The position numbers and the translations under genes are program-made. A DNA stretch of 44,691 nucleotides from Propionibacteriaceae bacterium (GTDB lineage Bacteria > Actinomycetota > Actinomycetes > Propionibacteriales > Propionibacteriaceae), in the NCBI GenBank assembly GCA_031272505.1, contig JAISTQ010000046.1, positions 1 through 44,691 of the forward strand. The letters are read 5' to 3'. Each line of letters starts with the position of its first letter. Within the stretch, counting starts at the first letter, position 1. The notes below the pieces were generated by a model, which was not told where the DNA came from, ran no database searches, and worked only from the letters and a program-made list of their open reading frames with translations. Below are positions 305 to 31,600 of this stretch, piece after piece.

Positions 305-350
305 GGTAGCATCGCACGAGAGAGGACACCAAACTACGGGGGTGGTACGA

Positions 351-3300
351 ATGTCTACGCGATTCAACGCGCACAAACACTGCACATCATTGGCAATCAG
401 CCTGGCACTGGTGCTGGGATTGACAGCCGTCCAGGGGGGGGGGGACGCCAGCTAGCGCCGACACGGCCGCGCAATTGGTCACCCAGATTAACGGATGGAG
501 TGGGGGTGGAACTGGCACGCTGACCGCCGTCTCCGATGGCGACACCGTTAATGTAACCGGCACCGTCACCGGAGCCACCTCCTCACTCGCCCTGGTGCTT
601 GATCCGGGCGTGACGGTCAACTGGCAGGCCTCGCTTGATTCAACAGCACAATATGTGGTCGATGTTTCTGGCGGCACTTTTGTCGCCACTGCAGGGAGGA
701 TTGAATCCAAGTTCTTCTCCGCTAGCACATGGGGCGCTGTGATCAAAGCTGCCTCGTCTGACGTAGAAGTGACCGGAACCGCGGAAATCGTGAACGTCTT
801 AGCGGCAAATGGGCTTGGCGTGTTCATGGATAACGATGTAAACGTCCTGATGAGTGGAGGTTCAATCACTGTCACTTCGAAGTGCGCAGTCAACGCTGAT
901 CCGTGGTCCCATTCTGTGACCGCCGTAGGCGGTAGCGGTGCTACAGGCGGATCCGTCACCATGACTGGCGGCACTATCTCTGCAACAGCCGAAGAGGGCT
1001 GCGCCAGCCCCACTTTTGGGCTCTCAGCAGGAACCAATCCAGTGATAATGAGAGGCGGGACAATCATCTCGAGAACCACGGGGGTAGGAATCGGCCTTCG
1101 GAACCACACCGGGACCTTTGAAATGACGGGCGGCACCATCATCGTCGATGGCGCTACCTTCGATAACCCAGATACCGAGATTGGCGGACCGGCCGGGGTA
1201 AGCCTACTCAACAACTCTTCGGGTGTGATCTCCGGTGGTACCATCACGGCGAAAGGCTCCAGCGCAGTCGTAGTGGAGAAGACCTCCGAGACGGCTACCA
1301 GCATCCAACTGAACGGCGGCGAAATCAAGGCGGAAAGCCCAGGTACGCTGATCAACCTGAAGAACGGCAGCTTCTCCCCCATCACCTGCACGGTGAACGG
1401 CAGCATCTTCCGCACCTACTCAGGTGACACTTCGGTGGCTGACAACGGCTGCACCTATGTCGGGGGAATCCAGTTCGTAGGCAACGCTGGCACTGTCTAC
1501 GGCAATGACACTCTGCCAAGTGATTACACTATTGCAAACGGTGAGACGCTCACGATCCCAAATGGCGCTACACTAACCAATCCCGAGGGCAATGTATTGA
1601 CGGTGGCGGCGGGCGGCACTTTGGTGAACAATGGCACGCTGGTGAACAACGGGCTGTTGGTAGTTGAGGGCACCTTACAGAACAACAGCGCCTTCTCGGG
1701 CACTGGGAATTTGACGGGCGCGGGCACCATTAACGGCTCGGCAGCTACCGATCCCGACATCGCGGCGCAGCGGGTCTCAGATGCCATCGGCACGTTGCTG
1801 AAACTGCTCAATGGTTGGAATGGCGGGGGCAGCGGCAGGCTCTCAGCCACGGCCAATGGAAACACGATCACGGTGAAGGGGACAGTGACCGGCGCAGCGA
1901 ACAGCTTGGCGCTTGCCCTCGATCCAGCAATCACGGTGAACTGGCAAGCCTCGCTTGATTCAGCATCGCAGTGGGTGGTCGATGTTTCTGGTGGTGGTAC
2001 TTTTATCGCTTCAGCGGGGACAATCGACGCCAAATTCCCTGGTCCTGACTGGGGGGCAGCAATTAGAGTGCTTTCGTCCAATGTTGAGGTTACTGGAACG
2101 GCGGAAATCGTAAACGCTTTCGGGCCGGGCGGGCTTGGCGTGTACATGCTCGAAACCGCGAATGTTCTGATGAGCGGGGGTTCAGTTACCGTCATTTCAA
2201 AGTGCGCTAGCTATGCTGACCCGCTCTCCCATAGCGTGTCCGGCATCGGGAACAGCGGAGCGGCAGGTGGCTCGATCACCATGACGGGTGGAACTGTTAC
2301 AACCACCGCCGAGGAGGGCTGTGCTGCCGTCACCAATGGATTGGTATCCGGTACCAATCCAATCATCGTCCGGGGCGGAACCATCATCTCGAGGACTACG
2401 GGAGTGCTGGTGGGTGCTCGGTACCATACCGGCACTTTCGAGATGACCGGCGGCTCCATCATCGTGGATGGTGCTACCTTCGATAACCCGGATACCGAAG
2501 TCGGTGGCCCAGCCGGGGTGAGCCTGATCAACAACTCCTCGGGCGTCATCTCCGGTGGCACGATTACCGCGAAGGGCTCCAGCGCGATCGTGCTGGACAA
2601 AACTTCCAGCGCCGCCTCCAGCATCCAACTCAACGGCGGCGAGATCAAGGCGGAAAGCCCCGGTACGCTGATCAACCTGAAGAACGGCAGCTTCTCCCCC
2701 ATCACCTGCACGGTGAACGGCAGTGTTTTCCGCACCTACTCGGGCGACACTTCGGTGGCTGACAACGGCTGCACCTACACCGCCGGATTCCACTTCGTGG
2801 GCGACGACGGCACGGTGTACGGCAACGCCACATTGCCCGACGATTGGACCGTTGACAACGGTGACAAGCTCACCGTGGCCAGTGGGGCCACGTTGACCGT
2901 CCCTGATGACACCACGCTCACCGTGGCGAGTGGCGGGCAGCTTATCGTGGATGGCGATCTGGTCGTTGACGGCACCTTGGTGAACAACGGCACGCTCACC
3001 AACAATGGTGAGACCAGCGTGGGTAATGGCGGCACGCTGGACAACAACGCCAACATCACGAACGCCGGCGCGCTCACCGTCGATCAAGGCGGCACGTTGG
3101 ACAACTCGGGCACCATTGCGAACACTGGCTCCGTCACAAACAATGGCACGTTCATCAACGATGGCACGATCTCGGGCTCGGGCACTGTCTCCAGCACTGG
3201 GACGCTCTCGGGCGCGAACGCGGACAATGTGTTGATCCACCAGGCTCAGCCGCAAGCCCCGCAAGCAGCATCGGTAACGGCGACCAGTGTGGTGCTGACG

Positions 3301-6186
3301 ACACTCGCGGGCGGCGAATACTCCAAGGACGGCGGCAACACCTGGCAAAGCTCTCCGACCTTCGCCGGCTTGACCCCGAATTCGATGTATTTGTTCTACC
3401 AGCGGCTGGCTGCCGATCCGCAGCATTACGCCTCGCCGATCTCGACCGCGCAGTTGGTGGTGACGGATCGGGCGGCTCAAACGACGCCGTCCGCACCCAC
3501 CGCCCAGGAGATCAGCGCCACTCGCGTCATCTTGAACTCCATTTCCGGCGGCGAGTATTCGCTGGACGGCGTGTCCTGGCAGGATTCTCCGGTGTTCGCC
3601 GGTTTGAGCCCGGTCACCGAGTACACGTTCTACCAGCGGCTGCGGGAGAGCTATCAGAAGACCGCTTCGGCGGCTTCGGCACCACTGCGCGTCTCCACCA
3701 CGAAGGCGGCCCAGTTGGCTCCGGATGTGCCGGTCGCGGATCGGAAGGGCACCACGGAGGTGGAGCTGCGGGTAGTGCCCGGCGCGGAGTACAGCATCAA
3801 TGGTTCCGTTTGGCAAAGCTCCCCGCTGTTCACCGGCTTGGAAAAGGGTGGCTTCTACGTCTTCTACCAGCGCTACGCGGAGACGGACACTTTGGCTGCC
3901 TCGCCCGCTTCGGGCGCCTTGCTGCTGGTCACCCGCAGCGAGGAACTCGATCACCAGGATGCCCCGGCGGTGCCAGCCGGTGATCCGGTGATCACGGATC
4001 ATTCGATCACGCTGCCTGTGCGCACTGGCGGCGAGTATTCGCTGGGCGGCACGGTGTGGCAGGCAAGCCCGGTCTTTGACGACCTGGCGCCGGATACCGA
4101 GTACACCTTCTTCTATCGTTTGGCGGCCACGGACACGCTCTATGCGTCCGGCCCGTCCACCGCGGTGGTGTATCGGACGGCCACGAAGAACCACCAGGTG
4201 GCCCCGGCCGCCCCGACCGAGGCGTCGCACACGGATACCACCGTCACCCTGAACGCGATTGCGGGCGGGGAATACGCCATCGACGGCGGCGACTGGCAAG
4301 CCTCTCCGAGTTTCACCGGTTTGGAATCAGGCACCAGCTACTCGTTCACCCAGCGTTTGGCGGCCACGGAAGAGGCCTATGCTTCCGATCCGTCACCGGC
4401 GCTGCTCGTTACCACCGCCAAGACCGCGCGCAGCGCGCCTGGGGTGCCGGTGCCAGACCAGCGCACCACCACCTCGATCACGTTGATCCCGATTGATTCG
4501 GGTGAGTATTCCAAGGACGGCAGTACCTGGCAGACGGCCCCGGTCTTCGCGGGCCTCACGCCCGACACCTCGTACACGTTCTATCAGCGGCAGGCCGAAG
4601 ACGCGCACTATCTGCAATCGCCGAGCTCGGCCGCGGCGACCATCTCCACCAGGTTGACGGAGTTGGCGCCGAACAACACCGCGCCCACGCTCACTGCCGC
4701 AAGCATCTTGGTGACCGCCGATACTGTCACCCTGCCCACCATTGTGGGCGGCGAGTACTCCATGGATGGCGCGCATTGGCAATCCAGCCCGGAGTTCTCC
4801 GGATTGCAGCCGGTGACCAGCTACACCTTCTATGCCCGCTACGAAGAGACGGCCTCCAAGTATGCGTCTCCCGCGTCGACGGGCGTCACCGTGCTCACCG
4901 GCTACGTGCAGCAGGCCGCTCCGCCGAACATTGACTCCGCGGCGGTAGTGAGCACGCCCACTTCCGTCACCCTGCCTACCGTGGCTGGTGGGGAGTACTC
5001 GAAGGACGGGGTGACTTGGCAATCCAGCCCGGAGTTCCACGGCTTGATACCGGGCAACAGCTACACCTTCTATACCCGGCTCGCGGGCAACGAGACCACG
5101 GATCCGTCCCCGCCCACGGCTGGATTGACGATCACGCTGGCCAAACAGGCGCAAGAGACTCCGCTGGCCCCGGTGTTGCTGTCCAAGACCGCCATCGAGG
5201 TGGCTTTGGTGGACATCGGCGGTGCCGAGTATTCCAAGGACGGGGTGAACTGGCAGGCGAGCAGTGTCTTCACTGGTTTGAGCCCGTCGACCACCTACAC
5301 CTTCTATCAGCGGTTGGCCGAGACGCCTTCGCGGTACGCCTCGGCGGCCAGCCCGACATTGACCGTCGTCACCGACGCCAACCTGGATGACACGGGAACC
5401 AAGGTGACCGGTTTGGCGATCACCAACGCGCCTGCGATGGTGGCTTACAAGAAGAGTGGGGCGGGCAACACGTTCCCGTTGGCGGTGGCGGTCACTCCGG
5501 CGAACGCCACCAACCAGACGGTCACCTGGGCGAGTTCTGATCCGACGTTGGCGACCGTCGCGGCGGACGGCACCGTCACCTATTTGGATAAGGAGGGGGT
5601 GGTGACGATCACCGCGACCGCGAACGACGGCACTAATGTGGTCGCCAGCGCCCAAATCCAGATCGCCCGGAACGTCACCAAGATCCGCACACCGCTCACG
5701 AAGCTGTATTTGCAGAAGGGCAAGAGTTTGACGTTGCCGATCGCTTTGGATGATGCGACCGCGCCCACCCAGGCCATCACTTCCGGCCTCACCTTCAAGA
5801 GCTCGAACACGAAGGTGGTGACGGTGAACGCGAAGGGTGTGATCAAAGCGGCGAAGACCGTGAAGAAACTCACCAAGGCGACCGTCACCGTGACCGCGAC
5901 AAACGGCAAGAGCCTGACGATCACCGTCTATGTGTCACCCACGGCGACCAAGCTCGCTAAAGCTACCGTGAAGGCTCCGACGAGCTTGAAGGTCGGCAAG
6001 ACCGGCCAGCTCACCGTGAAACCCTCTGGGAAGCCCACCGGTGTGAAGGTCACCTTCAAATCCTCGAAGAGCAGCATCCTCACCGTGGACAAGGCCGGGA
6101 AACTCGTCGCCAAGAAGAAAGGCAAAGCCGTCATCACCATCAAAGTCGGCACCAAAACCACCAAAAAGACCATCACCGTGAAGTAG
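351..6186 (+). CDS. giant secreted surface repeat protein, frame interrupted at a G11 tract
   Basis: The ATG at 351 follows a GGGGGTGG ribosome site and encodes a classic signal peptide (basic start, then SLAISLALVLGLTAV). In the sequence as given this frame stops at TAG 453-455, after 34 codons. Loss of one G from the tract at 434-444 joins it to the 1.9-kaa frame that continues to 6186 and restores a PASA-DT cleavage site. Domain order: two related beta-helix-like modules (about 490-1500 and 1810-2820), each followed by NNGT-type repeats; nine fibronectin-III-like repeats of about 78 aa with the core GGEYSxDG-WQxSPxFxGL (about 3238-5375); one BIG2-like Ig domain (about 5400-5670); and lysine-rich Ig-like repeats ending ITVK. 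No LPXTG motif is seen. Likely an adhesin or glycan-binding wall protein. Without the shift, the only start in the long frame would be TTG 475, with no signal peptide or clear ribosome site. Confidence 0.85.
434..444 (+). repeat. poly-G tract (11 G) inside the signal-peptide region
   Basis: Eleven consecutive G residues fall between the hydrophobic core and the cleavage site of the signal peptide. With 11 G the frame closes after 34 codons; with 10 (or 13) it runs into the 1.9-kaa surface protein. This is the layout of slipped-strand phase-variation switches. A sequencing or assembly length error gives the same picture. Confidence 0.85.
490..2820 (+). repeat. tandem duplication of a 1-kb module within the surface-protein gene
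   Basis: Copy 1 (about 490-1500) and copy 2 (about 1810-2820) are offset by about 1,320 bp. By eye the 5' parts are near 80% identical at DNA level. The last 150 bp (about 1310-1460 against 2630-2780) are much closer, which suggests gene conversion at the 3' end. Each copy encodes repeated MTGGT/MSGGS turns typical of right-handed beta-helices. Confidence 0.8.
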
Positions 6187-6191
6187 ATCGA

Positions 6192-6279
6192 GGTCGCTTC
6201 GCTCCCACACTCTTGGTTCGCTCCAAGCACCTCCGGTGCGTCGCGAACTGGATTCCCGGGCTACGCCCGAGAATGACGG
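6192..6279 (+). repeat. dispersed hairpin repeat, family member 2
   Basis: It lies directly after the surface-protein stop. Its stems are GCACC-TCC-GGTGC and CGGGC-TAC-GCCCG, joined by GTCGCGAACTGGATTCC. The linkers match the element at 16113-16200, where the stems are TACC-TTC-GGTA and CGACC-TTC-GGTCG. It may terminate surface-protein transcription. Confidence 0.75.
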
Positions 6280-6623: not shown

Positions 6624-6890
6624 ATGCCAGAGCTATCGAGGTTCTTTGGGATCATCGTCAGAATGTACTTCGTGGATGCCAATCAGCATCACACACCGCA
6701 CATCCATGTGGAATCGAACGGAAAAACAGCATCAGTAAGCCTCGATGGGAGGGTGTTAGCCGGCCAGATCGACAAGCGTAAACTGACGGTCCTTCAGGCC
6801 TGGATGCTGCTTCACGAGGAGGAACTGAAAGCCGCCTGGCAGAGTTTGTTGAACGCTGAGCCGTTCGGTACGATTGAACCATTGAGATGA
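6624..6890 (+). CDS. DUF4160-family protein
   Basis: This is an 88-aa protein of the DUF4160 type. It begins MPELSRFFGI, carries the HHTPHIHVE segment that resembles the family's PHFHV core, then a GRVLAGQIDKRK strand and a helical tail with HEEELKAAWQ. The start is fixed by AGGAGGAG 6 nt upstream. The DUF2442 gene follows 10 bp downstream, so the two form one small operon. DUF4160/DUF2442 pairs are common, mobile-looking cassettes sometimes proposed as toxin-antitoxin systems; no activity is established and I infer none. Confidence 0.85.
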   Translation: MPELSRFFGIIVRMYFVDANQHHTPHIHVESNGKTASVSLDGRVLAGQIDKRKLTVLQAWMLLHEEELKAAWQSLLNAEPFGTIEPLR

Positions 6891-6900
6891 GGAGGTTCGG

Positions 6901-7182
6901 ATGCCTGTTGTGGACGGTGTCGTCTATGCCGACGACTTTGCGCCGGTGATCGAAGCCATCTCCGTTCAGCCGCTTGAAGGGCATCGCATCGAAGTCCGTT
7001 TTGAGGACGGGCAGGTGCGCGTCTTCGACATGAGCGGCCTCCTCAACATGGGCGATTTTCGCCGCATCGCCGATCCCGAGGCTTTCGCCACCGTGCACAT
7101 TGACGGCGGTGCCCCGGCTTGGCTAGACGGCTCCGTCGACATCGCGCCCGAAACCGTCTACTACGACGGCAAACCCGTCTGA
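6901..7182 (+). CDS. DUF2442-family protein
   Basis: This is a 93-aa protein with the DUF2442 layout: an N-terminal strand pair (AISVQPLEGHRIEVRFEDG), VRVFDMSGLL, then FRRIADPEAFATVHIDGGAPAW and a final strand. A GAGGAGG ribosome site precedes the ATG. It is the second gene of the DUF4160-DUF2442 cassette. Its last 96 bp recur almost identically at 1-96, so the cassette, or part of it, was duplicated around the surface-protein gene. Function unknown. Confidence 0.85.
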   Translation: MPVVDGVVYADDFAPVIEAISVQPLEGHRIEVRFEDGQVRVFDMSGLLNMGDFRRIADPEAFATVHIDGGAPAWLDGSVDIAPETVYYDGKPV

Positions 7183-7191
7183 CCCGTCGGA

Positions 7192-7297
7192 CTGTTCGGC
7201 TTCGCCTATCAGACTCAATCGTCACGGTCGAATGAGCTTACGCTCGCTCTCCCGCTCCTCAATCGTCTGGATCCCCGACCTTCGGTCGAGGATGACG
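7192..7297 (+). repeat. composite repeat: 75-bp unit plus 31-bp hairpin element
   Basis: Positions 7192-7266 are the exact reverse complement of a 75-bp unit present twice in tandem at 26881-27030. Positions 7267-7297 (with the stem CGACC-TTC-GGTCG) are the reverse complement of 26850-26880. The whole 106-bp composite is therefore inverted at 26850-26955. It lies between the convergent DUF2442 and clpC genes and may act as a bidirectional terminator. Confidence 0.85.
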
Positions 7298-7313
7298 GGT
7301 CGAGGTAGCTTGG

Positions 7314-16112: not shown

Positions 16113-16200
16113 CCTCGCTGCGCTCGGGCGCTCTTTGTTCGCTCCAAATACCTTCGGTATGTCGCGAACTGGATCCCCGACCTTCGGTCGAGGATGACGA
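16113..16200 (+). repeat. dispersed hairpin repeat, family member 3
   Basis: It fills the gap between two convergent genes. Stems are TACC-TTC-GGTA and CGACC-TTC-GGTCG, joined by GTCGCGAACTGGATCC. It aligns with 6192-6279, where both stems carry different but still complementary bases. A bidirectional terminator role fits the position. Confidence 0.75.
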
Positions 16201-26829: not shown

Positions 26830-26850
26830 GAGATGGTGCGAACCATCTCC
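26829..26850 (+). terminator. GNRA-capped hairpin at the end of pucR
   Basis: GGAGATGGT-GCGA-ACCATCTCC is a perfect 9-bp stem with a GNRA tetraloop. It begins at the last base of the stop codon. No U-run follows, so it would be a non-classical terminator or a 3'-end stabiliser. Confidence 0.6.
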
Positions 26851-27110
26851 GTCATCCTCGACCGAAGGTCGGGGATCCAGACGATTGAGGAGCGGGAGAG
26901 CGAGCGTAAGCTCATTCGACCGTGACGATTGAGTCTGATAGGCGAAGCCGAACAGACGATTGAGGAGCGGGAGAGCGAGCGTAAGCTCATTCGACCGTGA
27001 CGATTGAGTCTGATAGGCGAAGCCGAACAGTGAGGAGGAGCCGAAGGCACTCCGACGAACAAAGAACGCCTGAGCGAAGCGAAGACGACCCGCAGGAGCG
27101 AAGCGAAGGC
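26850..27110 (-). repeat. repeat cluster: hairpin element, 75-bp unit in tandem twice, and related fragments
   Basis: 26850-26880 is the 31-bp hairpin element. 26881-26955 and 26956-27030 are two identical 75-bp units. Both parts recur in inverted orientation at 7192-7297. 27031-27084 resembles the outer part of the dispersed repeats (CCGAAGGCACTCC, ACAAAGAACGCC, GAGCGAAGCGAAG). The cluster fills the gap between pucR and hpt; no gene is seen in it. Confidence 0.85.
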
Positions 27111-27738: not shown

Positions 27739-30700
27739 TTATTTGACCTTGATGGTCTTGGCCGCGGAGTATTTCAGGGTGCCGTAGTCGGCCTTTATCG
27801 GGTTGTACTTGGCTTTCACCTTGATGGCTTTGGCGTACTTCTTCGGCAGGGTGATGGTGGTCTTCGTCTTGATGGCGTTGAACACCTTCACTTTCTTGCT
27901 GCCCACGAAGATCGCGACCCGGCCCTTCACCGACGAGCTGCCATCGGACAGCTTGATGGTGACGGTGATCTTCGGCTTGGAGTTCTTCTTGAACGCCGAA
28001 CCGGTCACAGTGACCGACTTAGTGGTCGGGTTCACCTTCGTCGGCGTTTCCGCCTTCGCGGGCAGCACCAGGCCAGCCACCGCCGATTTCACCGCGGTGA
28101 TCGCGTCCCGCAACTGCACCGCGGTCGAAGCCGGATTCGCGATCGCCGCCTTCGCCGCCGCAACCGCCGCGCTCAACACCGCATACGAAGCCGGCGTATA
28201 CGCGTCCGCGTTGATCGTCTCCGCGTTCGCAACCACCGCTTCCGCGGCCGCCCGCGCCTCAGCCTTCGCCTGCGCGGTCGCCGGGCTGTCTGCCTCCGCG
28301 ACCGTCACCGCCAACGGCTCCGCCGAAGACGCGCTCGCATACGAGCTACCGGAATACACCGCCACGATCTGCTGGGCGCCACCCTCGGTGATCACCACCG
28401 AAGTGGTGGCCTTCCCAGTGGAATCCAAAACTGCCTCGCCGAGCTTCTCGCCATCAGCCGAGCCAAGATAGAACTCCACCTTGCCGGTCGGCACCGCATT
28501 CGACGTGCCCTTCGGGGTGACCGTCGCCGATACCTCCGTCAAACCCCACGCCTTCGCGTTGCTGACCGGATTCATCGTGACCTCCACCGCCGAGAAAATG
28601 ATGTCCGAAGCGAAATCGTTCAGCAGGCTCCGCCAAACATCCCAAGAATGGACACCCGACTTATAGTTCTCGACAACATTGCCGCCCAAAGCGCGGAACT
28701 TCTCCGCCAACTGCGGGCCGACCACACCCGGACCAGGATAAGTAGCCGGCTGGGTGCGCTTGTCATACAAGCCCGCGCCCACCTGGATGATGATCGGGGA
28801 ACGGATACCCGCGCCATTGTCAGCCTCGGTGAGATCATACAAAGCCGTGCCGCCAACCGCCGTGTTCGGATCATCCTTCGGCGACCAAACGGCGATATAG
28901 CCGGCCAAATCCACCACCGTCGAGAACGACGCGGTAACCGCCATGCCGCCCTGCGACAAGCCAGCCAACGCCCGGTCCTCAACCTTGGTGGAAACGTTGT
29001 AGTTCGCCTCCATCCACGGAATCAGCGAATCCTTGAGCTCTCGGCCCAGCAGAATCGCCGACTGATCAGCGTGCCCGGACGTCAAACTGCCATAGGTGAC
29101 CATCACGATCACCATCGGCTGCGCCTTCCCGGCGGCAATCGCGTTCGCGACGATATTCTGCGCCACACCCTGGGTGGCCCAGTCCGTCTCGTTACCGCCA
29201 CCACCATGCGAGATATACAGTGTCGGATACGGAGTCGCCCGCGTCGGGCTATAGCCCGCCGGCGTCCACACCGTGATATGCCGGGTCCCGCCCGTCAACG
29301 CCGAAGGATAACTCCGCGACGTCAACGTGCCCGCATTCGCCGAAGTCGGCGGGGCCTGGAACGAATTGTCATACGACGGATACTTCGTCGACTGCGGCAC
29401 ATACACCTGCGACAACGTCTGCTGGCTTGCCCCAGCCGCCACCTGCGCCGCCTGATTCGACCACGGCAGATTATACGGATCAGTCGCGTTCACACAGCCA
29501 GTGCCGCCAGCGCCAGTACACACCGAATAACGGTAAGAGAAAGTACCCGACGGCAACGGCGTCGTATACTCCCAAACCCGATTCTTGGCATCCACCAACG
29601 TCATATCAACCGTAGGCCAACCGCCATTCCAGCCCGTACCCGCCACAATGTCACCAGAACGCCAATCCTTGCCCATCCGCATCTCCCCGACGAAATTATT
29701 CGCCAGGAAAGTATTCGGATTCGAGAACGTCCACTCACCATAAATCCGCGCCAAAGCAACACCCGGATCCGCCTGATAACGGAACGTCACCGTATAACCA
29801 GTCGGCGACGCATCCGTCTTATTCACCGTCGGACCCAACCGCAGCGGATTGTCCACTTCCTCGACCGTCACCGCGAGCGGCTCCGCCGCAGTGGCGCTCT
29901 GGTAGGCATCGCCGGAATAGACGGCCACGATCTGCTGGGCGCCGCCCTCGGTGATCACCACGGAAGCGGTGGCCTTGCCGGTAGCGTCCAGCGTGGCTTC
30001 ACCGAGCTTCTCGCCGGTGGCCGACCCGAGGAAGAACTCCACCTTGCCGGTCGGCACCGTGTTCGACGTCCCCTTCGGGGTGACCGTGGCGGAAACCTCC
30101 GTCACACTCCACGCCTTCGCGCTGGTGATCGGATCCATGGTGACGTCGACCTCCGAGAAAATGATGTCGGAGGCGAAGATGTTGAGCAGTCTGCGCCAGA
30201 CATCCCAACAGTGCACGCCCGGCATGTAATTCTCGACGACATTGCCGCCCAAGGCGCGGAACTTCTCCGCCAACTGCGGGGAGAAGGTGCCGATGCCGGT
30301 GCCGCTGGTCGAAATGTCCTGCTGGCCCACGCCCACCTGAATGACGAGCGGGGAACGAATGGCCGCGCCGTTATCTTCCTCGGTGAAATCGTATAGGGCG
30401 GTGCCGCCGACAGCCGCGTTCGGAGTGTTCTTCGGCGACCAGACACCCACGTATCCGACCAAATCCACCACGGTCGCGAACGACGCGGTGACTCCCATGC
30501 CGCCTTGCGAAAGGCCGGACAGCGCCCGGTCCTCAACCTTGGTGGAAACGTTGTAGTTGGCCTCCACCCAAGGAATCAGGGAATCCTTCATCTCGCGGCC
30601 CAGCAGGATCGCCGAAGCGTCCGCGTTGCCAGACGTCAAGCTGCCGTAAGTGACCATCACGATCACCATCGGCTGCGCCTTCCCGGCGGCGATCGCGTTG

Positions 30701-31506
30701 GCGACGATGTTCTGCGCCACACCCTGCGTAGCCCAGTCCGTCTCATTGCCGCCACCACCATGCGAGATATACAGCGTCGGATACGGAGTCTCCCGCGTCG
30801 GGTCATAGCCTGCGGGCGTCCACACGGTGATCGGCCGGTTTCCGCCAGTCATCGCGGACGGATAGCTGCGCGGGGTGAGCGTCCCCTCGTTGCCCAGGGC
30901 CGGTGGAGCCTGGTAGGAGTTGTCGTACGTCAGGTACTTCGTGGATTGCGGCACGTACACCTGCGACAACGTCTGCTGGGTGGAACCGGCGGCCACCTGG
31001 GCAGCCTGGTTCGACCACGGCACATTCACTGGATCAACCGTGTCGGTGCAGTTGGTGCCGCCAGCGCCGGTACACACGGAGTAGCGGTAGGAGAAAGTGC
31101 CGGAGGGCAGTGGTGTGGTGTACTCCCAAATCAAGTTGGTCGTGTCAACCAGCGTCATGGGGACCGTCGGCCAGCCGCCATTCCAGCCGGACCCGGCGAC
31201 AATATCTCCCGCCTGCCAATTCGCGCCGGTGCGCATCTCCCCAACGTAGCCGTTGGTCGCGAAAGTGTCCGGGTTGGAGAACGACCACTCGCCATAGATC
31301 TGCACCAAGGTGACGCTTGAATCCGCCTGGTAACGAAAGGTCACGGTGTAGCCGGTGGGCGAATCATCCGTCTTGTTCACCGTCGGGCCCAGCCGAAGCG
31401 GGTCCGCGACAGCCTGCGGTGACTGCGCAGCTAGCAGTGAGGTAGCGCTCAGTACCATCCCCAAGGTGACGGCAATGAACGCCCGTAGTCGGTGATGTGT
31501 CATCAT
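27739..31506 (-). CDS. secreted double-headed esterase (feruloyl/acetyl esterase-like) with Ig and FIVAR domains
   Basis: A secreted protein of about 1,255 aa. The signal peptide (to about residue 35) ends AQAVA-DP style. Two tandem modules follow (about 36-550 and 552-1070). Each has a CBM48-like N-terminal Ig domain (LRLGPTVNKT, YSVCTGAGG), an esterase-D-type alpha/beta hydrolase domain (LYISHGGGGNETDW oxyanion region, nucleophile elbow GLSQGG near 330 and 850, catalytic His in GVHCWDVW and GVHSWDVW), and a bacterial Ig3-like domain (VPTGKVEF). Then comes a FIVAR-type helical segment (about 1072-1145) and a lysine-rich Ig-like tail ending KTIKVK. Likely an esterase acting on plant or mucin glycan esters outside the cell. 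The start ATG 31506 has AGGAG 8 nt upstream; ATG 31503 is equally possible. It sits inside the otherwise conserved tilS-hpt interval. Confidence 0.85.
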   Translation of the reverse strand: MMTHHRLRAFIAVTLGMVLSATSLLAAQSPQAVADPLRLGPTVNKTDDSPTGYTVTFRYQADSSVTLVQIYGEWSFSNPDTFATNGYVGEMRTGANWQAGDIVAGSGWNGGWPTVPMTLVDTTNLIWEYTTPLPSGTFSYRYSVCTGAGGTNCTDTVDPVNVPWSNQAAQVAAGSTQQTLSQVYVPQSTKYLTYDNSYQAPPALGNEGTLTPRSYPSAMTGGNRPITVWTPAGYDPTRETPYPTLYISHGGGGNETDWATQGVAQNIVANAIAAGKAQPMVIVMVTYGSLTSGNADASAILLGREMKDSLIPWVEANYNVSTKVEDRALSGLSQGGMGVTASFATVVDLVGYVGVWSPKNTPNAAVGGTALYDFTEEDNGAAIRSPLVIQVGVGQQDISTSGTGIGTFSPQLAEKFRALGGNVVENYMPGVHCWDVWRRLLNIFASDIIFSEVDVTMDPITSAKAWSVTEVSATVTPKGTSNTVPTGKVEFFLGSATGEKLGEATLDATGKATASVVITEGGAQQIVAVYSGDAYQSATAAEPLAVTVEEVDNPLRLGPTVNKTDASPTGYTVTFRYQADPGVALARIYGEWTFSNPNTFLANNFVGEMRMGKDWRSGDIVAGTGWNGGWPTVDMTLVDAKNRVWEYTTPLPSGTFSYRYSVCTGAGGTGCVNATDPYNLPWSNQAAQVAAGASQQTLSQVYVPQSTKYPSYDNSFQAPPTSANAGTLTSRSYPSALTGGTRHITVWTPAGYSPTRATPYPTLYISHGGGGNETDWATQGVAQNIVANAIAAGKAQPMVIVMVTYGSLTSGHADQSAILLGRELKDSLIPWMEANYNVSTKVEDRALAGLSQGGMAVTASFSTVVDLAGYIAVWSPKDDPNTAVGGTALYDLTEADNGAGIRSPIIIQVGAGLYDKRTQPATYPGPGVVGPQLAEKFRALGGNVVENYKSGVHSWDVWRSLLNDFASDIIFSAVEVTMNPVSNAKAWGLTEVSATVTPKGTSNAVPTGKVEFYLGSADGEKLGEAVLDSTGKATTSVVITEGGAQQIVAVYSGSSYASASSAEPLAVTVAEADSPATAQAKAEARAAAEAVVANAETINADAYTPASYAVLSAAVAAAKAAIANPASTAVQLRDAITAVKSAVAGLVLPAKAETPTKVNPTTKSVTVTGSAFKKNSKPKITVTIKLSDGSSSVKGRVAIFVGSKKVKVFNAIKTKTTITLPKKYAKAIKVKAKYNPIKADYGTLKYSAAKTIKVK
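28285..31405 (-). repeat. tandem 1.56-kb duplication inside the esterase gene
   Basis: The two esterase modules (about 29850-31405 and 28285-29848) are highly similar at DNA level. Long blocks are nearly unchanged, for example around 30655-30790 and 29095-29230. This suggests recent duplication or ongoing gene conversion. Confidence 0.85.
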
Positions 31507-31543
31507 TTCGATGACTCCTTTCTGATATGGGCTGCATCGGTGG

Positions 31544-31600
31544 CACCCGCACCGATGCGGGTGGGATGTCGGCGACATCGCCGAACGAAAAACTTTCGTT
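31544..31600 (-). promoter_or_regulatory. three consecutive hairpins between tilS and the esterase gene
   Basis: Three perfect stem-loops lie within 57 bp: CACCCGCA-CCGA-TGCGGGTG (31544-31563), GATGTC-GGC-GACATC (31565-31579) and AACGAAA-AAC-TTTCGTT (31584-31600). They lie 38 to 94 nt before the esterase ATG and 88 nt or more after the tilS stop. They may terminate tilS or form a structured leader for the esterase mRNA. Confidence 0.65.

Follow-up and report, generated by a model that had tools for sequence, protein, structure and literature searches.

A G11 run between the signal peptide and the body of a giant Fn3/Ig-like protein as a candidate phase-variation locus in an uncultured Propionibacteriaceae bacterium

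Introduction

Slippage switches, in which a change in the length of a simple repeat turns a gene on or off, are best known from pathogens. Among the closest described systems are the G-tract switches of the sortase-pilus genes bbr_0113 and bbr_1889 in B. breve UCC2003, which operate by replication slippage and which, in the case of bbr_0113, were recorded in one culture as 37% G11, 59% G12, and 3% G10 (PMC9187656, available text). Within the Propionibacteriaceae, the tract lengths of PPA2127, a dermatan-sulphate-binding protein of C. acnes, and of PPA1880 differ between strains along with secretion, as described in the accessible part of PMC3224659. In a further C. acnes study, the variable tracts for the most part follow clades, and the conclusion drawn by the authors, in the text available from that source, is one of slow accumulation and not of active modification (PMC4746626). 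In C. jejuni, a Type IIG enzyme is described as phase-variable in the excerpted text of PMC4889913. An initial annotation of the DNA discussed here had invoked homopolymer slippage in surface-protein genes as an established mechanism, and it is indeed described both in the same family and in bifidobacteria.

Here we analyze a G11 run at the 5' end of a gene for a giant Fn3/Ig-like protein. The window, that is, the whole stretch of 44,691 nucleotides under analysis, is the complete contig C67 of a draft genome (2.23 Mb in 67 contigs) from an uncultured member of the Propionibacteriaceae. Judged by one aminotransferase (83% identity), the closest named relative is the Propionibacteriaceae metagenome-assembled genome isolate Md513_bin123.

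Results

The start region and its two reading frames

The features of the locus are collected in Table 1. The frame that opens at ATG351 translates as MSTRFNAHKHCTSLAISLALVLGLTAVQGGGDAS, specifying a Sec-type signal peptide in which a basic n-region leads into a hydrophobic core and then into the first part of a c-region; the G11 run comes next, and after it the TAG codon that closes the frame. The body frame, blocked on its upstream side by TGA 421-423, stays open over 424-6183 and ends at TAG 6184-6186; the 1,913 codons of body behind the run hold no stop where base composition predicts about 57, and an open frame of this length is far from chance. This frame contains no ATG, GTG, or TTG before TTG475, and translation from TTG475 would yield a protein without a signal peptide, leaving the body with no start of its own that carries an export signal. 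By frame arithmetic, one length class of the run in three joins the signal peptide to the body. The locus has a long mononucleotide run within the coding start, as do homopolymeric-tract phase-variable loci, and the length of this run sets the reading frame of a gene that is otherwise intact behind it, as in a contingency locus. The initial annotation had described the ATG, its ribosome site, the signal peptide, and the TAG, had placed the run between the hydrophobic core and a cleavage site, and had noted that a run shorter by one base restores the frame; every coordinate that we checked is correct, translation agrees with the placement, and the arithmetic is right. A scan of positions 97-700 for sigma-70 promoters and terminators returned neither.

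Table 1 Features of the giant gene and its start region in the window
Feature	Coordinates	Strand	Evidence or remark
Leader also present at the C4 paralogue, with its 26-base motif at 307-332; GGGGGTGG at 338-345 as ribosome-binding site	307..345	+	Motif search, alignment
Signal-peptide frame, closed by TAG 453-455	351..455	+	Translation
Body frame of the giant protein	424..6186	+	First listed start TTG475, 1,903 aa; off-frame relative to the signal peptide in the assembly
G11 run, candidate slippage site	434..444	+	Between hydrophobic core and cleavage-like site
First all-beta repeat, beta-helix-like	475..1764	+	71% identity to second; pLDDT 69.9; weak Foldseek matches
Second all-beta repeat	1795..3108	+	Repeat alignment; dN/dS
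Nine Fn3-like repeats	3253..5400	+	Alignment, model pLDDT 92.5, Foldseek
C-terminal Ig-like region (Big_2), no LPXTG	5398..6183	+	Pfam

The G11 (434-444) is the sole G/C run of at least seven within the window. Dinucleotide shuffles of the window contain a mean of 0.11 G11 runs, and since 9 of 100 shuffles have at least one, the run by itself is just mildly unusual. The genome as a whole holds three runs of G10 or longer and 11 of G8 or longer; of the other two of at least 10, one comes directly behind the stop codon of a gene for a secreted protein and the other is intergenic. Among the 11, only that of the window was found to split an export signal from a long body, three of them (one on contig C9 and two on C31) being seen in short context, within about 100 bases of a contig end. 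What is unusual about the G11 is its place, not its mere occurrence. The other long runs of this genome were also considered as switches and were rejected: they fall in spacers, repeats, a proline-rich tail, at contig ends, or after a stop, and no signal-peptide split was found among them. A second G11 of the same genome (locus L169, 3302-3312) directly follows the stop codon of a 317-aa secreted-protein gene and precedes an apparent hairpin.

A run-free paralogue joins signal peptide and body

The genome encodes a paralogue on contig C4 that is 44% identical across body residues 1-409. The 26-base leader motif is present in this genome at these two loci only, with both copies exact in a search permitting up to three mismatches. 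The C4 gene specifies a related signal peptide and reads without interruption into the body, with no run; the alignment makes the window 4 nt longer at the run site. The paralogue runs off the contig end, and its C-terminus lies outside the assembled sequence. Because a paralogue with the same leader reads straight through, signal peptide and body are parts of one gene, for which these alignments provide good evidence. The claim that the run sits within the coding start of a single gene and alone parts signal from body is supported further by similar splits elsewhere in the genus (see below).

Searches for relatives place the giant protein, as far as they reached, as lineage-specific. With the 218-aa N-terminal part of the paralogue as query against 147 genomes of the family, strong matches were confined to its own genome, and weak ones were found in five other family genomes (E 1.5e-5 to 9.2e-4). 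A scan of genome contigs with the body of the giant protein returned no relative, and a search of four named relatives with the giant protein gave C-terminal Ig-like matches only, in one of them. Md513_bin123 has four matches to the protein, which agree in position and score with those in G028, a member of the same genus as the window, and we regard these two as one genome. No orthologue of the giant gene with another run length was found in the 147 family genomes and the four named relatives; in a synteny comparison of the position downstream of clpC, three relatives have no such gene, and in a fourth the contig ends there. Phage sequences gave matches in 66 records, which among the 20 records listed involve the Ig region and at most 10% of the protein, and plasmid sequences gave no match to the N-terminal 430 aa.

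Architecture of the giant protein

The N-terminal part of the protein consists of two tandem all-beta repeats of about 430 residues each with 71% mutual identity. The dN/dS between them is 0.17 over 385 aligned codons, a value that speaks for past selection on the protein. The top Foldseek matches of the first repeat are EtpA and antigen 43 at TM-scores of 0.13-0.21, with a model of pLDDT 69.9, which is only suggestive of a beta-helix. The model of one Fn3-like repeat has a pLDDT of 92.5, and its Foldseek list is made up mostly of Fn3-containing chains at probabilities of 0.99-1.00 with a best E of 3.8e-3, none being at or below 0.001; Pfam returned no Fn3 match at E 0.01. Judged by the quality of the model the assignment of an Fn3 beta-sandwich is firm, and its search scores are modest. 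Of the beta-helix/Fn3/Ig architecture initially put forward, the nine Fn3-like repeats and the Big_2 region are supported, and the N-terminal beta-helix is plausible but weak. The protein has neither an LPXTG motif nor a hydrophobic C-terminal segment, and no PT repeats, a trait of PPA2127 against which it was checked. The label "adhesin" is one that we infer from architecture only, and a role in surface or glycan binding would be a guess. A C-terminal Ig-like stretch (5600-6183) recurs at eight other places in the same genome, each matching to residue 1902-1903, and is perhaps a shared wall-binding or sorting module.

Surroundings of the giant gene

The first 96 bases of the window are the 3' end of a DUF2442-type gene and are 97.9% identical to part of a second DUF2442 gene at 6901-7182, which is preceded by a DUF4160 gene (6624-6890). 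These near-identical direct repeats (1-96 and 7087-7182) bracket the giant gene and may represent either a duplication through which recombination could excise the gene or a repeat at which the assembly broke off. Dispersed spacer repeats are found at 142-226, 6194-6278, 7192-7298, 16115-16199, and 26849-27031; they include an inverted pair (85 nt, 79%) that flanks the giant gene and a 107-nt stretch present twice with 0 mismatches. Farther downstream, a 1,279-aa gene (27739-31578) combines two esterase stretches with Big_3_5 domains and contains a tandem repeat of about 1.56 kb (79%).

Long G/C runs across the genus

We surveyed G/C runs of at least nine, together with their surroundings, in 30 genomes of the genus, 29 of which have one. 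This gave 139 distinct long runs, of which 89 were tested; the 50 left out lie within 150 bases of the start of a stretch or 400 of its end. A run was scored as splitting an export signal when a start codon with a ribosome site and a hydrophobic N-terminus was parted from a long body in another frame. Such splits were found at six of the 89 long runs and at six of 1,721 runs of four to five at the same loci (Fisher p 9e-6; 5/88 and p 9e-5 when the window is omitted), with 0/47 and 1/7 at the intermediate lengths of 6 and 7-8, respectively; the rule was set after examples had been seen and long runs are more prone to errors and frameshifts, so that this is not a clean test of placement, and the p-values of the survey describe and do not prove. 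With all classes pooled, 12 of the 89 long runs scored versus 70 of 1,721 (p 5e-4), a count that retains three runs (L055, L170, and L171) that look spurious. The in-frame class (3/89 versus 42 of 1,768 runs of four to six) and the 5'-UTR class (4/89 versus 32/1,768) are not clearly enriched, and the signal therefore lies in the frame-breaking runs. When a signal peptide was not required, eight of 89 runs scored, against 18/1,373, 7/348, and 0/47 in the controls; six of the eight are identical to the export-signal splits, and the remaining pair consists of L211, an interior split, and the doubtful L250, which looks spurious but remains counted. A C11 within an in-frame signal peptide (L058) was missed by the split rule and is left out of the counts. 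Interior frame splits amount to two records among 92 long runs (controls 11/1,520, 6/384, and 0/50), of which L211 is convincing and L255 probably spurious. A crude placement of the 89 runs puts 32 near the 5' end of a frame, 38 between frames, 18 in interiors, and one near a 3' end; as it was made without calling gene starts, it carries no weight here.

The six export-signal splits come from four of the 30 genomes: that of the window, L220 and L225 in G023, L232 and L233 in G024, and L253 in G027. Apart from that of the window, the bodies have matches to CBM_11 (slightly above the cut-off), SBP_bac_5, GH3, Sortilin-Vps10 (below the cut-off), and Big_2. At L211 in G020, a Type IIG restriction-methylation gene is broken into two open pieces by a G12 (1502-1513); genes of this class are known to phase-vary, and such a site is a classical one. 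Two further runs stand before genes of secreted proteins, a C11 directly before the ATG of a subtilase-like protein (L179, 1499-1509) and a G/C run some 50 bases before an alpha-galactosidase-like one (L244, 1502-1511), and could tune translation or transcription. Finally, L202, L206, L207, L209, and L210 (G015 and G019) are clusters in which long runs of G alternate with long runs of C. Most are located at contig ends; they look like assembly artefacts and call for caution when homopolymers are surveyed automatically in draft genomes.

Run-free relatives of the split genes

The split gene at L233 has an 83% identical orthologue in G029 with its signal peptide in frame and no run. The GH3 gene of L232 has two relatives (69-70%) in the genome of the window, both in frame with run-free signal peptides, one of which is preceded by a G7 some 70 bases before the start. 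Together with the C4 paralogue, these genes provide three cases of a run that is a local, derived change within an export signal, one that stays intact in relatives. The genome of the window gives 18 matches to a secreted GH3 protein of a relative, several of them in frames of 1,300-2,400 aa, and this lineage seems rich in giant secreted glycosidases.

Discussion

The G11 is best explained as a contingency locus that probably varies by slipped-strand mispairing. Replication slippage would alter the length of the run; in one of every three length classes, translation would run from the signal peptide on into the 1.9-kaa body, with export of this giant Fn3/Ig-like protein, and in the other two, translation would end shortly after the run, leaving a body without a start that carries an export signal. 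The assembled sequence would represent the OFF state. The run, the two frames, the open body, the run-free paralogue, and the repeated placement of such runs in export signals across the genus all speak for this switch, and we infer that run length differs between cells and that export follows it. The phase-variable switch put forward in the initial annotation is partly supported. The slow change of tracts in C. acnes, as concluded in the available text of PMC4746626, counts against a switch that is fast.

Other explanations of the same sequence were weighed. Long homopolymers are prone to sequencing error, and if the G11 were an error of sequencing or assembly, the true run would be in frame and the gene plainly ON, with no switching. 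The draft state of the genome, in 67 contigs, would accommodate this, as would the clearly artefact-like long G/C runs elsewhere in the genus, in alternating clusters mostly at contig ends, and homopolymer error is a concern also in the accessible part of PMC4746626. We nevertheless judge an error to be unlikely: the G11 lies inside its contig with ordinary sequence on both sides, and random errors should strike gene interiors equally or more, whereas 92 long runs yielded a single convincing split in an interior (L211), against six at export signals.

A fixed, recent frameshift in a gene on its way to becoming a pseudogene would show the same OFF state, which counts against the switch, and would agree with the derived nature of the run, given that the paralogue and the sister-species orthologue of another split gene are run-free and in frame. 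The absence of any other stop from the 1,913-codon body and the recurrence of runs at this kind of site, in four genomes and in exported genes that are unrelated, make simple inactivation distinctly improbable.

RNA polymerases are prone to slip on long G runs. DNA of fixed length could then give mixed products, with some protein always made, by slippage in transcription or by frameshifting of ribosomes, an alternative that is equally improbable in our view. B. breve expression is attributed to replication slippage in the text available from PMC9187656, in which the term "transcriptional slippage" does occur twice.

With a phase-variable G11 retained as the leading explanation, a wider possibility can be put forward tentatively, namely that the genus has a phase-variable secretome, in which G/C runs arise repeatedly in export signals of unrelated proteins and single cells stochastically choose the proteins that they export. 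The runs would then be sited immediately behind the start codon, within the n-region or the c-region, or just past a lipobox, and the proteins would include carbohydrate-binding and glycosidase-like ones, a solute-binding lipoprotein, and giant Fn3/Ig-like ones. We found no description of signal-peptide-targeted runs in this genus among the open-access papers listed by our searches, which is not to claim their absence from print. If real, the switch adds an uncultured relative of Cutibacterium to the carriers of slippage switches and suggests the export signal, not the promoter or the body, as a favoured switch site in the genus. As the affected genes seem to include those for secreted carbohydrate-active enzymes and for a transport lipoprotein, it would also offer a testable case for a stochastic division of labour in feeding, and not for immune evasion alone.

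Comparison with described systems brings out both likenesses and differences. The Type IIG switch of C. jejuni (PMC4889913, excerpted text) may have a counterpart in the genus, where the G12 of L211 splits such a gene. It is unlike the G11 locus in that it concerns a cytoplasmic enzyme and a run deep in the gene, not at an export signal. The C. acnes genes share with the giant gene the family Propionibacteriaceae and a run of C or G situated at, or close to, the 5' end of a gene for a surface protein; they differ, in the parts available from PMC3224659, in that their proteins carry PT repeats, which the giant protein lacks, in that a mutated start codon contributes in PPA2127, and in that the main reading places the PPA1880 tract in the promoter. 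As far as the available text of PMC9187656 goes, the B. breve pilins are LPXTG proteins encoded in sortase clusters, whereas the giant protein has no LPXTG; no sortase was found among the 18 ORFs of the window scanned with Pfam (two without a match), the upstream gene being cut by the contig end. The pilin genes and the giant gene are alike, from the same text, in that a Sec signal and a body lie in two frames parted by a G run, and in that the annotated genome is off-frame, with a body lacking a start that carries an export signal. Taken together, the anatomy of the locus is best explained as that of a known kind of switch, for which C. acnes and B. breve provide close precedents.
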